This document shows, in pieces, positions 52,501 to 56,617 of a DNA stretch of 64,000 nucleotides. Position 1 is the first letter of the stretch. Every line of letters starts with the position of its first letter. The position numbers and the translations under genes were made by a program. The DNA is from an uncultured Ferrovum sp. (GTDB lineage: Bacteria > Pseudomonadota > Gammaproteobacteria > Burkholderiales > Ferrovaceae): positions 70,283 through 134,282 of the forward strand of contig CAITLJ010000035.1 of assembly GCA_903893215.1 (NCBI GenBank). The letters are read 5' to 3'. The notes under the pieces are model-generated. The model worked only from the letters and a program-made list of their open reading frames with translations, ran no database searches and was not told the origin of the DNA.

Positions 52501-52992
52501 ATGACCAAGCTTTACGACATTCCGCTGCAACGACTCGATGGCAGTGCCGATCACTTGCAGAATTATCGCGGCCGGGTGTTGCTGGTCGTGAACGTGGCCA
52601 GCCGTTGCGGCTTCACGCCGCAGTATGCCGGGCTGGAAGCCTTGTACAAGGCCAATCATGCGGCGGGGCTCGACGTGCTGGGCTTTCCATGTAACCAGTT
52701 TGGCGGCCAGGAACCTGGCTCCGCCGAGGAAATCGCCAGCTTCTGCAGCACGCGCTTCGAAGTCAGCTTTCCCGTGTTTGCAAAGACCGATGTGAACGGG
52801 GCCGACGCCCATCCGCTGTATCAGCATCTCAAGCACGCAGCGCCCGGCCTGCTCGGCACCGAGGGTATCAAGTGGAACTTCACCAAGTTCCTGATCGGCC
52901 GCGACGGGCAGGTGCACGCGCGTTATGCGCCCACTGACACGCCGGAACGGATCGCCCGCGACCTGCCAGCGCTGCTCGTCACCCCCGCCTGA
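52501..52992 (+). CDS. Glutathione peroxidase family thiol peroxidase
   Basis: A 163-residue thioredoxin-fold peroxidase (BtuE/GPx type) that reduces hydroperoxides. The peroxidatic Cys is in NVASRCGFTPQY. The second block FPCNQFGGQEPGSAEEI supplies the catalytic Gln and a Cys, and the Trp-Asn pair is in IKWNFTKFLIG. It uses Cys rather than selenocysteine; bacterial forms commonly take electrons from thioredoxin. No signal peptide is seen, so it is cytoplasmic. Confidence 0.95.
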   Translation: MTKLYDIPLQRLDGSADHLQNYRGRVLLVVNVASRCGFTPQYAGLEALYKANHAAGLDVLGFPCNQFGGQEPGSAEEIASFCSTRFEVSFPVFAKTDVNGADAHPLYQHLKHAAPGLLGTEGIKWNFTKFLIGRDGQVHARYAPTDTPERIARDLPALLVTPA

Positions 52993-53059: not shown

Positions 53060-54760
53060 TCAGGCCACCCGGGCCAGGGCAGCAAAGAACCTGACCTGCT
53101 GTTCGGGTGGCAGTTTGGCATGCGCCCGGTTCAGCCCGCTCAGCACCGCACGAATCGAGGCATTCACGATATTGGCGTGCTGCCCGGCGCCGAATGTGGT
53201 GCCAGGCAGGCCCTCCACAGCGATTTCGGCAAAAGCGATCGCCGTGGCGTCCGCCCCCTGCCCCATGCTGCGCTCCTCGTAGGACTGCAGCGTGGCACGC
53301 GCCTGCACCGCCTGCAGCAGGGCATCGATCGGTCCGTTACCCACACCGCGCATCACGTGTTGAATGCCACCGGCACGCACCGTCAGCACCAGCACCGAGC
53401 GCTCGCCCTCGGCACCGAGGTGATGCGATACGTAGCTCAATGCCTGATCCGCCTGCAAATATACCCGGTTGAACAGCGCCCACAACTCGGGGGCCTGCAC
53501 CTCGCCTCCTGTGGTGTCGGTCAATGTCTGGACGGCACCGCTGAACTCCACCTGCAGGCGGCGCGGCAGCACAACGCCATAGTGACTTTCCAGCAGCCAG
53601 GCCACCCCGCCCTTGCCGGACTGGCTATTGACGCGAATGATCGAATCATAGGTGCGGCCAAGGTCAGCCGGGTCAACCGGCAGGTAAGGAACCTGCCAGA
53701 GCGTGTCGGGCGCCTGAACCGCCATGCCTTTGCGGATCGCATCTTGATGCGATCCAGAGAAAGCCGTAAAGACCAGATCACCAACATAGGGGTGGCGTGG
53801 GTGAATTGGCAACTGGGTGCACTCTTCGCTGATCCGGGCAATCTCGTTCAGGTTGCTGAAATCCAGACCCGGATGCACGCCCTGGGTGTACAGATTGAGC
53901 GCCAGGGTGACCAGGTCGACGTTTCCGGTACGTTCACCATTGCCGAACAGGCATCCTTCCACCCGGTCGGCGCCGGCCAGCACCGCCAGTTCCGCTGCAG
54001 CCACGGCAGTACCGCGATCGTTGTGGGGGTGAACGCTCAGCACAATGCTGTCACGCCTGGCCAATCGGCGATGCATCCACTCGATCTGGTCGGCATATAC
54101 ATTTGGCGTGGCCATTTCCACGGTAGCGGGCAGATTGATGATCACCTTCTGCGCGGGCGTGGCACGCCACTCGGCCGCCACCGCATCACACACCTGGCAG
54201 GCAAATTCCAGTTCGGTGCCGGTGAATGTTTCCGGGCTGTATTCAAACTGCCACTGCGTGCCCGGCTGTGCCTCGGCCAGCGTGCGGATCAGGCGGGCAC
54301 CGTCCACGGCAATCTGCTGCACACCAGCCTTGTCCAGACCGAACACGGTCTGGCGAAAATTCGGTGAGGTCGCGTTGTAAAGGTGCACGATCGCGCGTTT
54401 CGCACCCCGCAGGGACGCCATGGTGCGGCGGATCAGGTGGTCGCGCGCCTGGGTCAGTACTTCGATGGTGACGTCATCCGGAATGTGGCCGCCTTCGATC
54501 AGCTCGCGCACGAACCCGAAATCAGTATCGGATGCCGACGGAAAGGCCACCTCGATCTCTTTGAAACCGATGGCCACCAAGGTCTGGAACATGCGCAGTT
54601 TGCGTTCTGCGTTCATCGGTTCGAAAAGCGCCTGATTGCCGTCGCGCAGGTCGGTGGACATCCAGATCGGCGGCGCAGTCAGGGTGCGCGATGGCCAGGT
54701 GCGGTCCGGCAAGTCAACGGGAGGAAAGGCACGGTATTTACGATCAGGTTGCTTCAGCAT
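53060..54760 (-). CDS. leuA: 2-isopropylmalate synthase LeuA (long form)
   Basis: The 566-residue enzyme condenses acetyl-CoA with 2-ketoisovalerate, the first step of leucine synthesis. The metal-site block [22 protein letters not shown] and [15 protein letters not shown] are present, and [12 protein letters not shown] is conserved. The C-terminal regulatory domain (about residues 430-560) includes [24 protein letters not shown] and is intact, so leucine feedback inhibition is expected. ATG 54760 has GGAG seven bases upstream. It is the long form seen in actinobacteria and many proteobacteria. A Leu-rich leader precedes it. Confidence 0.97.
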
Positions 54761-54780
54761 GAGAGTGCTCCAGCGCGGGC

Positions 54781-54807
54781 AAAACAGGGGTATCCCCACC
54801 AGTGGGG
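54781..54807 (-). terminator. Candidate leuA attenuator with two exclusive hairpins
   Basis: On the minus strand, CCCCAC can pair with GTGGGG (54794-54807), or the same GGGG can pair with the following CCCC (54787-54797) to give a short stem followed by TGTTTT. The two stems share one strand and so exclude each other, as in an attenuator. The stems are short, so strength is uncertain. Confidence 0.5.
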
Positions 54808-54845
54808 CGGGAAAGGCAACGGCAAAACGAACGGGGGGGGGAGGT

Positions 54846-55013
54846 TTAGATGTGCGCTGCGCGCAGCAGCAACGCCTGCAGGGGCAGCAGCAGGCCACCA
54901 GGCAGGACAACGCCATCCCGCAGCACAGCGGCGGCGTGACCGCGGCTTACCGTTGCCGCTGCAGGACGCAGGGCATGGGGCATGGCTGACGATCGATGGG
55001 GCAGACTGGACAT
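54846..55013 (-). CDS. leuL: Leucine-rich leader peptide of leuA
   Basis: A 55-codon open frame 85 bases upstream of leuA, on the same strand. Residues 41-50 read [10 protein letters not shown], seven Leu in ten, and the frame stops soon after. This is the arrangement of a leucine leader peptide, in which ribosome stalling at Leu codons controls transcription into leuA. The start is uncertain: ATG 55013 lies only eight bases past a possible -10, and ATG 54983 is an alternative with no clear Shine-Dalgarno. No protein function is expected. Confidence 0.68.
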
Positions 55014-55020
55014 GCCTTGA

Positions 55021-55049
55021 CTCTAAATCAACATGGCGGGGACGGTCAA
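55021..55049 (-). promoter_or_regulatory. Candidate leu leader promoter
   Basis: Minus-strand TTGACC (55044-55049) is followed after 17 bases by TTAGAG (55021-55026). The -35 is good and the -10 poor. If used, transcription would begin at or next to the leader ATG. Confidence 0.4.
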
Positions 55050-55147
55050 CGCACAGGCGGGCGCGGGGTAGGCGGTGGCTTGTCGCCAACCACCGGCCGG
55101 CCACGCCCGGACGGGCGCGGCCGGCCGGTGCTGCCGTTCATGCAGGA

Positions 55148-56617
55148 TCAACGCCCGTCGGCCATCTTGGCGACCCCACCCCAGCCGCCCCCCAAGGCCT
55201 TGTATACGGCCACCAGCGACGTGGCTGCCGCAGTCTGCGACTGACTCAGCCGATCCTGATCCGACAACAGGGAACGCTGGGCATCCAGCACGCTCAGAAA
55301 ATCGGTCTTGCCTGCCTCATAGCGTGCCTGCGCCAGCCGGGCTGCTTCGGTCGAAGCCTCCACGGCACGCTGCAGGCTGTCCTGCTGCTGCTGGGTGCGG
55401 CTGTAGGTGACAAGAGCGTCGTCCACGTCTTCCAGTGCAACCAGCACGGTTTTCTCGTAGGTGGCCAGCGCCGCATTGGTGCGCGCTTCGTTGGCGCGGA
55501 TCTGGCTGCGCAGGGAACCAAAATCGAAAGGCGTCCAACTCAACGCCGCACCGAAATTGTAGATGAAGGCGTCGTTACGCGGGAGCGTTGCCAGACTGCC
55601 TGCATTCAGACCCAGCATGCCCGTCAGGCTGATCGACGGAAACAGGGCTGCAGTGGCTACCCCGATACCGGCATTGGCCGCCGCCAGCTGGCGCTCGGCC
55701 ACCCGGATATCCGGCCGCTGCCGTAGCAGTTGCGCAGGTGCCCCGACGTTGGCCAGAGGTGCCAGGCCAGGCAGTGGCTTGGGCTGCGCTACCAGCGCCT
55801 CGGCAGCCTTGGGAGGCTGACCGGTCAGCACTGCGATCCGGTAAGCACTGCGCGCAATCGCCGCCTGGTATCCCGGCAGCGTCGCCTGGGTGGACGCCAC
55901 CAATGCGCGCGCACGCGCCGTATCCAGCGCAGTGCCGCGCCCCAATTGTTCCAGGGAATTCACCAGCGTCAGGTTGTCCTGCTGGTTGCGCAGGGCCGCC
56001 TCGGCGATCTGCAGCTGTTGCTGGGTGCCACGCAGGGTGAAATAGGTGCTCGCCAGCTCGCCGGCCAGGCTCACCTGCGCCGCCTGCACGCCGGCTTCGC
56101 TGGCGGCCACGAGCGCACCTGCGGCCTCGCGACCACGGGCGAACTTGCCGAACAGGTCGATTTCCCAGCGCGCATCTGGCAGGTCGACCGTATCGATGGT
56201 CTTGGTACGGCTGGCACGGTCACCCGGAAACAGGGTCTGCCCGATCACCTCGCGGTTGGTGCCTGCAGCCAGCGCCACACCAGGACGACTCGCCGCCTCG
56301 GCGCCAAGCAGATTGGCCCGGGCCTCCTGCAGCCGTGCCTGCGCAATGCGCAGGTCGGGATTGGCCGTGATGGCCTGCTGCATCAAGGTATTGAGTATTT
56401 CGTCGTGAAATCCGGTCCAGAATACGGCCACGTCCACTGCACCTGCCGCTGCCGGCGCACCAGCGACCGCGTTGACATAAGCCGACGGCACTGTGGCGTT
56501 GTCCGGCGCATGGTAATCCGGCCCCACCGTGATGCAGCCCGACAACGCCAGCGTGGCACCGATGGCGGCTGCCAGCGGCCGGCGCCGGGAGATATCCCGA
56601 ATGCTTGTGTGCTTCAT
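55148..56617 (-). CDS. TolC-family outer membrane efflux lipoprotein (OprN-like), second system
   Basis: A 489-residue outer membrane factor. The N-terminus carries a basic segment, a hydrophobic stretch and a lipobox (LALSGC), so it is a lipoprotein. Two OEP repeats are visible, starting near ITANPDLRIAQARLQEAR and LLRQRPDIRVAERQLAAANAGIGVA. The start overlaps the upstream permease stop. It completes the tripartite system as the last gene. Confidence 0.93.
   Translation of the reverse strand: MKHTSIRDISRRRPLAAAIGATLALSGCITVGPDYHAPDNATVPSAYVNAVAGAPAAAGAVDVAVFWTGFHDEILNTLMQQAITANPDLRIAQARLQEARANLLGAEAASRPGVALAAGTNREVIGQTLFPGDRASRTKTIDTVDLPDARWEIDLFGKFARGREAAGALVAASEAGVQAAQVSLAGELASTYFTLRGTQQQLQIAEAALRNQQDNLTLVNSLEQLGRGTALDTARARALVASTQATLPGYQAAIARSAYRIAVLTGQPPKAAEALVAQPKPLPGLAPLANVGAPAQLLRQRPDIRVAERQLAAANAGIGVATAALFPSISLTGMLGLNAGSLATLPRNDAFIYNFGAALSWTPFDFGSLRSQIRANEARTNAALATYEKTVLVALEDVDDALVTYSRTQQQQDSLQRAVEASTEAARLAQARYEAGKTDFLSVLDAQRSLLSDQDRLSQSQTAAATSLVAVYKALGGGWGGVAKMADGR

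Follow-up and report, generated by a model that had tools for sequence, protein, structure and literature searches.

Comparison with relatives identifies a genuine leucine leader, a short reading frame with a run of Leu codons, ahead of the long-form leuA gene in the window (the whole 64-kb stretch of DNA that was analysed). Since many relatives carry the same device before the same gene, it is very probably a leucine-sensing device of this organism and its relatives. Judged from the sequence, control of leuA by this leader is highly likely. In our full explanation the leader ORF senses leucine, acts in cis on leuA, is read from a leaderless start and shuts the gene off by a step other than an intrinsic terminator. 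We put the probability of this whole reading at roughly 0.6.

Locus, leader frame and promoter

The leader and leuA lie on the minus strand downstream of the end of an RND efflux operon, in the order promoter, leader ORF, C-rich tract, modest hairpin, GGAG and leuA ATG (Table 1). An 18-bp GC-rich hairpin (-44.6 kcal/mol, about 55090-55135, minus strand), which has no T run, was observed between the efflux operon and the leuA promoter.

Table 1. Features of the leucine leader locus, with positions in the window
Feature	Position	Strand	Basis and remarks
Outer-membrane gene of RND efflux operon	56617..55148	-	named from sequence
-35 box TTGACC	55044..55049	-	promoter scan; relatives have equivalent TTGACN or TTGCNN boxes
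-10 box TAGAGT, ending 6 nt before the leader ATG	55020..55025	-	promoter scan; spacing conserved
Leader ORF, 55 codons + TAA	54846..55013	-	ORF translation of the window, ATG at 55013; predicted start is the RNA 5' end; only the end of the ORF resembles relatives
Leucine run CTG CTG CTG CCC CTG CAG GCG TTG CTG CTG	54864..54893	-	ORF codons
Terminal hairpin UGCGC-GCA-GCGCA, overlapping the last Leu codon	54853..54865	-	p 0.083 in the window by synonymous recoding; strong over relatives
C-rich tract ACCTCCCCCCCCC, directly after the stop	54833..54845	-	top 1.7% of C excess in its region; common to relatives
Downstream hairpin CCCGCCCCACTGGTGGGGAT	54792..54811	-	-10.2 kcal/mol, not better than shuffles
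Alternative hairpin GGGGATACCCC (54797..54787), then TGTTTT	54781..54797	-	-5.7 kcal/mol; no terminator by scan
GGAG, likely Shine-Dalgarno of leuA	54768..54771	-	sequence
leuA, long-form 2-isopropylmalate synthase	53060..54760	-	TIGR00970 and NF002991 above cut-off; PDB 1sr9, E 6.5e-190

The original prediction had described a 55-codon frame with seven leucines in ten residues, ending 85 bases upstream of leuA. The frame was confirmed, and the distance from its stop to the leuA ATG (54760) is exactly 85 bases. The window has 326 ATG ORFs of 15-75 codons, and no other among them has seven Leu in ten residues; dinucleotide-shuffling the entire 64 kb 15 times produced no such ORF. Relatives resemble it at the end of the ORF only; roughly its first 30 codons show no conservation. 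A Pfam and NCBIfam profile search with four leader peptides gave no meaningful match.

That the downstream gene is a lone, long-form leuA also proved correct (Table 1); the next gene (52501..52992) lies on the opposite strand. The PDB entry matched by the protein is, we take it, the M. tuberculosis enzyme. The genome has a second leuA, of the short form, on another contig and 28 nt behind a pssA-like gene. We found no leader in the upstream region of this short-form gene, nor, on inspection by eye, upstream of ilvB.

The pair TTGACC-18-TAGAGT (55049..55020) is the sole sigma-70 match in 54300..55300, where shuffles gave a mean of 0.1, and it is positioned upstream of the Leu codons. Its -10 box ends 6 nt before the ATG; what had been suspected at the leader start is confirmed as a promoter-like sequence. 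RNA polymerase usually initiates about 7 nt beyond a -10 box, which would place the RNA 5' end on the AUG or no more than one or two bases away. A later start codon was considered, as L085, a sister locus from the same genus, has an internal ATG. It was dropped and the first ATG kept, since in the window, L085 and L004 alike it is the first ATG that stands at the right distance from the promoter.

The same spacing recurs in relatives. In 56 of 76 leaders collected blind to the promoter (about 330 nt scanned in each), the -10 box of the best promoter lies 6-8 nt before an in-frame ATG; when only the ATG of the longest ORF was considered, this was the case in 46 of the 76. The spacing in 87 promoter-selected leaders was 6 nt in 49, 7 nt in 33 and 8 nt in five, within a range preset by the 5-8 nt allowed in their selection. 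The earlier hint of leaderless translation is thus supported, and we consider it likely that the leader is translated in this way.

Recurrence of the leader in relatives

The comparison drew on 80 long-form leuA loci of named genomes, mostly betaproteobacteria. A further 30 loci came from a set of 61 genomes made up of the window's own genome and 60 relatives, and the short-form leuA set for the window's order comprised 30 loci plus 40 regions. An architecture scan (-35 box, 15-19 nt, -10 box, 5-8 nt, ATG, 12-75 codons, five Leu in 15) picked out 37 of the 111 regions scanned upstream of leuA, where shuffled sequence would give 0.15; the 37 include the window itself (as L002 and L084) and two loci that share one leader (L054 and L097). 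With the promoter criterion dropped, 76 of 182 regions upstream of leuA contained a leader; a repeated 120-nt stretch was counted a single time in the 76 and each time in the 182. By these promoter-blind criteria the remaining 106 had none, including the long-form loci L087-L092, L095 and L096 of the same family, in which the covariance model described below found no match save one at chance level in L089. At L087, L088, L091 and L096, which have no leader, the long-form leuA seems by eye to face a divergent gene for an Lrp-like regulator.

The leaders end in LLLR-x-A-R or a near variant, upstream of both leuA forms. As a bare DNA pattern for this end we used CTGCGCNNNGCGCGCTAA, which holds no gene information. 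It occurred at 54 sites, spread over 53 of the 300 genomes searched in the window's order (reversed-pattern control, 14 sites), and in two of 321 genomes of the wider class (reversed pattern, 7 sites), three of the 321 belonging to the window's order. Thirty of the 54 order sites were fetched, and in 29 of them leuA follows on the same strand after 71-229 nt, as a short form in 22 cases and as a long form in seven. One order site (L208) and both class sites were not upstream of leuA. Many of the pattern-positive genomes had been met earlier via leuA; the search itself was blind to it. The window is missed by the pattern, for it carries a variant with CAC for CGC and one extra codon before the stop. 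Four other matches to the end motif in its own genome were discarded, the frame running open after the motif with no stop.

A covariance model was built from 55 short-form leaders only, with the window and the long-form loci held out. It ranked the window leader first in the 64 kb at E 0.0031 (next, 0.23) and matched L085 at E 0.0061, E-values of such models being rough. The window thereby has the feature of the class, a terminal UGCGC hairpin at LLLR-x-A-(R/H) together with a C-rich tract. On long-form loci the model found 13 of 97 at E<0.05, all upstream of leuA. A pairwise DNA alignment of the window with L085 was set aside because it misaligned the leaders.

The architecture scan, the blind pattern and the held-out model support the prediction of a leucine leader peptide ahead of leuA that is conserved in relatives. 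The prediction had been staked on conservation of the Leu run: the run recurs, and synonymous sites at the end of the ORF are constrained. Comparison across these loci establishes the ORF, the Leu run, the promoter geometry, the terminal hairpin, the C-rich tract and the near-exclusive link to leuA.

The leader is not tied to one isozyme. Among genomes with both forms in which we inspected both, the window genome, G001, G044 and G052 have it only at the long-form gene and G010 only at the short-form gene; G056 has a leader at each of the two, and G016, G020, G021, G028 and others have none at either. In G015 it precedes the short form, and the long-form locus of that genome has almost no upstream sequence. 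Of the three long-form leuA genes in the window's genus, those of the window and G001 have the leader and that of G002 (L096) has none.

In genomes of 32 to 70% GC the L-R-x-A-R codons are written CTG CGC NNN GCG CGC, a codon use that permits the terminal hairpin. Over the 76 promoter-blind leaders, the mean folding energy of the ORF end was -6.7 kcal/mol, against -2.6 after synonymous recoding. The difference reached p<0.05 in 42 of the 76, and in 21 of 24 from genomes below 55% GC. Where the end varies (RxGR, RGRAH, RASAN, RVCAH and RAAH of the window), the hairpin is kept with other partners; practically none was seen in L007, L008, L009, L011, L014 and L099. The arms are nearly invariant in pair counts and hence uninformative for covariation, so the constraint could be on the sequence instead of the pairing. 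The leaders of Herbaspirillum, Janthinobacterium and Massilia (L067, L070, L071, L074, L075, L077) have CTA CTA CTA Leu codons in GC-rich genomes and no UGCGC terminal hairpin. The Parvibaculum leaders (L034, L037, L038, L050) share the promoter spacing but have ALLCA or LLRA at their ends, and mostly carry GCGCAGAA around the stop.

From leader to leuA: proposed mechanism and rival readings

In the mechanism we favour, transcription would begin at the leader AUG and a ribosome would start on the leaderless message and read the run of Leu codons, the last of which is part of the small hairpin that ends shortly before the stop. With ample leucine the ribosome would run through and depart at the stop; the hairpin would then form and the C-rich tract would be exposed. 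Expression of leuA would then stop, most likely by premature termination of the Rho type. When leucine is short, the ribosome would wait on the Leu codons, the hairpin would be blocked and RNA polymerase would proceed into leuA. We infer the leucine response from the codons and the gene; translation of the leader, the direction of control and the off-step are likewise inferred.

Over 18 nt after the stop, the tract has 47% C and 5% G in 48 short-form leaders. A C excess among the top 5% of the leader's own region was seen in 38 of 48 leaders of the short form and in 11 of 33 of the long form. The post-stop hairpin folds better than shuffles in the short-form leaders (mean z -1.36, n=48) and is not clearly above shuffles in the long-form ones (mean z -0.37, n=34). 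A T run after the hairpin is present in few leaders (L141, L143, L152) and missing in most; L101 and L102 have a hairpin and then a T-rich tract. In the window, folding is no better than shuffles for the downstream-hairpin stretch (z +0.36) or for the whole leader (z -0.17).

The original prediction had read the region before leuA as two mutually exclusive hairpins and TGTTTT. These sequences exist, with the energies given in Table 1, but they fold no better than shuffles and an intrinsic terminator scan found no match between the leader and leuA. The corresponding mechanism is classical ribosome-mediated attenuation, in which GGGGATACCCC-TGTTTT would end transcription when leucine is ample and the competing hairpin would win under starvation. 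It could draw on the two overlapping hairpins with TGTTTT in the window and on the hairpins with T-rich tracts in some relatives (L141, L143, L152, L101, L102). Against it, the stem is weak (-5.7 kcal/mol), the T run is broken, the sister locus L085 gave no terminator call, and a ribosome at the stop codon would reach neither hairpin. The overlapping hairpins showed no switch in permutation and masking tests: pairing of the C-tract with the downstream hairpin or the Shine-Dalgarno (SD) was not above permuted pairs, and with the hairpin even weaker (z +2.30); ribosome-masking folds of the window and L085 gave no clear switch; and the Leu run showed no synonymous selection for pairing with the downstream hairpin. 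U-tracts are poor or absent both in the window and in the majority of relatives, and tests for alternative pairing were negative. A leucine-dependent choice between two hairpins with an intrinsic terminator is not supported, and we regard classical attenuation as unlikely. The off-step in the window genome is probably something other than an intrinsic terminator.

Control could instead be translational, in the style of the actinobacterial LEU element: the Leu run would pair with the leuA SD, and a waiting ribosome would free it. This element is the closest known layout, and in L135, L136, L140 and L152 the Leu region is strongly complementary to the leuA ribosome-binding region. Leu-SD pairing also exceeds permuted pairs (z -2.21, one of nine comparisons). 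Synonymous recoding, however, gave no sign of selection for it: the mean z was +0.09, two of 59 leaders had p<0.05, and the window stood at z +0.66. In the separate comparison of complementarity, 31 of 59 leaders fell below expectation and the mean did not differ from zero. We find this reading improbable. Still less credit goes to a reading in which a released leader RNA works in trans and uses its C-rich tract to bind G-rich ribosome-binding sites on other messages. A C-rich, G-poor tract whose pairing with the downstream hairpin is not above permuted pairs would suit such a role, and rnTrpL of Sinorhizobium meliloti is a precedent for a leaderless attenuator RNA with trans action (PMC10117765), but the C-richness has simpler readings. 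That the run is a chance product of GC-rich DNA, or belongs to a small protein unrelated to leucine control, we consider barely credible. CTG is expected to be common in such DNA and the first part of the leader is not conserved, but the run is unique in the window, absent from shuffles, matched by the held-out model and leuA-specific in occurrence.

Returning to our cis-acting leader with a non-intrinsic off-step, Rho-type termination is its most economical form because a pairing switch was sought and not found. Rho itself is a tentative suggestion, composition being the one observation that points to it. By an estimate from the usual footprint, a ribosome paused on the final Leu codons would overlap the terminal hairpin at least in part; it would not itself cover the C-tract, which speaks against the Rho step.

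Family status and comparison with known systems

At the gathering score, Rfam matched only RNase P in the window. In 54740-55060 there was no RF00512 match up to E 10 and only chance-level Rfam matches, and 14 related loci gave no match either. Automatic RNA annotation would not show the element, since Rfam misses it. A second conserved element was seen between the Leu leader and the long-form leuA, about 85-140 nt upstream of the gene. It consists of an inverted repeat around TTGCCNGGCC and a small frame, L-x-L-x-x-(G/A)-C-x-A, and a strict pattern found it in 12 of 101 long-form loci (L004, L048, L020, L097, L069, L075, L054, L077, L071, L079, L081, L074) against 0.1 expected from mononucleotide shuffles. 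It is absent from the window; L004, L048, L020 and L075 are among the 14 Rfam-negative loci.

Searches of an open-licence library listed no paper whose title or abstract deals with a betaproteobacterial leuA leader. Vitreschak et al. reportedly surveyed proteobacterial attenuators in 2004. The leucine leader peptide as a kind is old, and Actinobacteria already provide a leaderless, terminator-poor layout before leuA. What looks new, as a variant, is the class in the window's order, whose hairpin extends into the final Leu codon. It is conceivable, though we would not bet on it, that a betaproteobacterial order has its own leuA-specific regulatory RNA family before two distantly related leuA isozymes, in which transcripts begin at the leader AUG, the final Leu codon lies in a conserved hairpin, and a C-rich tract, not a terminator, is the off-signal through Rho or a trans-acting released RNA. 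Leaderless leader peptides on record include actinobacterial leaders (PMC8079986) and alphaproteobacterial trpL (PMC10117765). A leuA-linked class across many families would let the effect of a 5'-end start on codon-by-codon sensing be compared from 32 to 70% GC, and a leader with no clear intrinsic terminator raises the question of which off-step reads the ribosome position.

The enterobacterial leu attenuator (RF00512) likewise has a Leu-codon leader peptide upstream of leuA. The window differs in having no Rfam match, no clear terminator, a lone leuA and a promoter at the leader ATG. In Rho-dependent attenuation of E. coli tnaC, the leader ORF precedes a C-rich stretch considered to load Rho, and a ribosome stalled on the stop codon covers the Rho site. 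The window has the same succession of leader ORF and C-rich stretch, whereas the stall expected in its class would come several codons earlier.

For a leaderless amino-acid leader ORF in a proteobacterium, the parallel is S. meliloti trpL. There the amino acid is tryptophan and the gene trpE, and trans action is known for rnTrpL, which uses a sequence other than a C-rich tract (PMC10117765). The actinobacterial leuA leaders resemble the window most. S. lividans leuL1 is leaderless and has no typical intrinsic terminator (PMC8079986), and the LEU element comprises a Leu-codon ORF just upstream of leuA, whose Leu run was proposed to pair with the leuA SD, and a conserved pseudoknot (PMC1262725). 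The window likewise has a short Leu-run ORF just upstream of leuA. It belongs to another phylum, Leu-SD pairing is not under selection in its class, and this class has the terminal UGCGC hairpin and the C-rich tract and stands before both leuA forms. Of the likeness to enterobacterial attenuation that had been suggested, the Leu leader before leuA stands; the closest layout is the actinobacterial leuA leader, and the enterobacterial leuABCD comparison is less apt.
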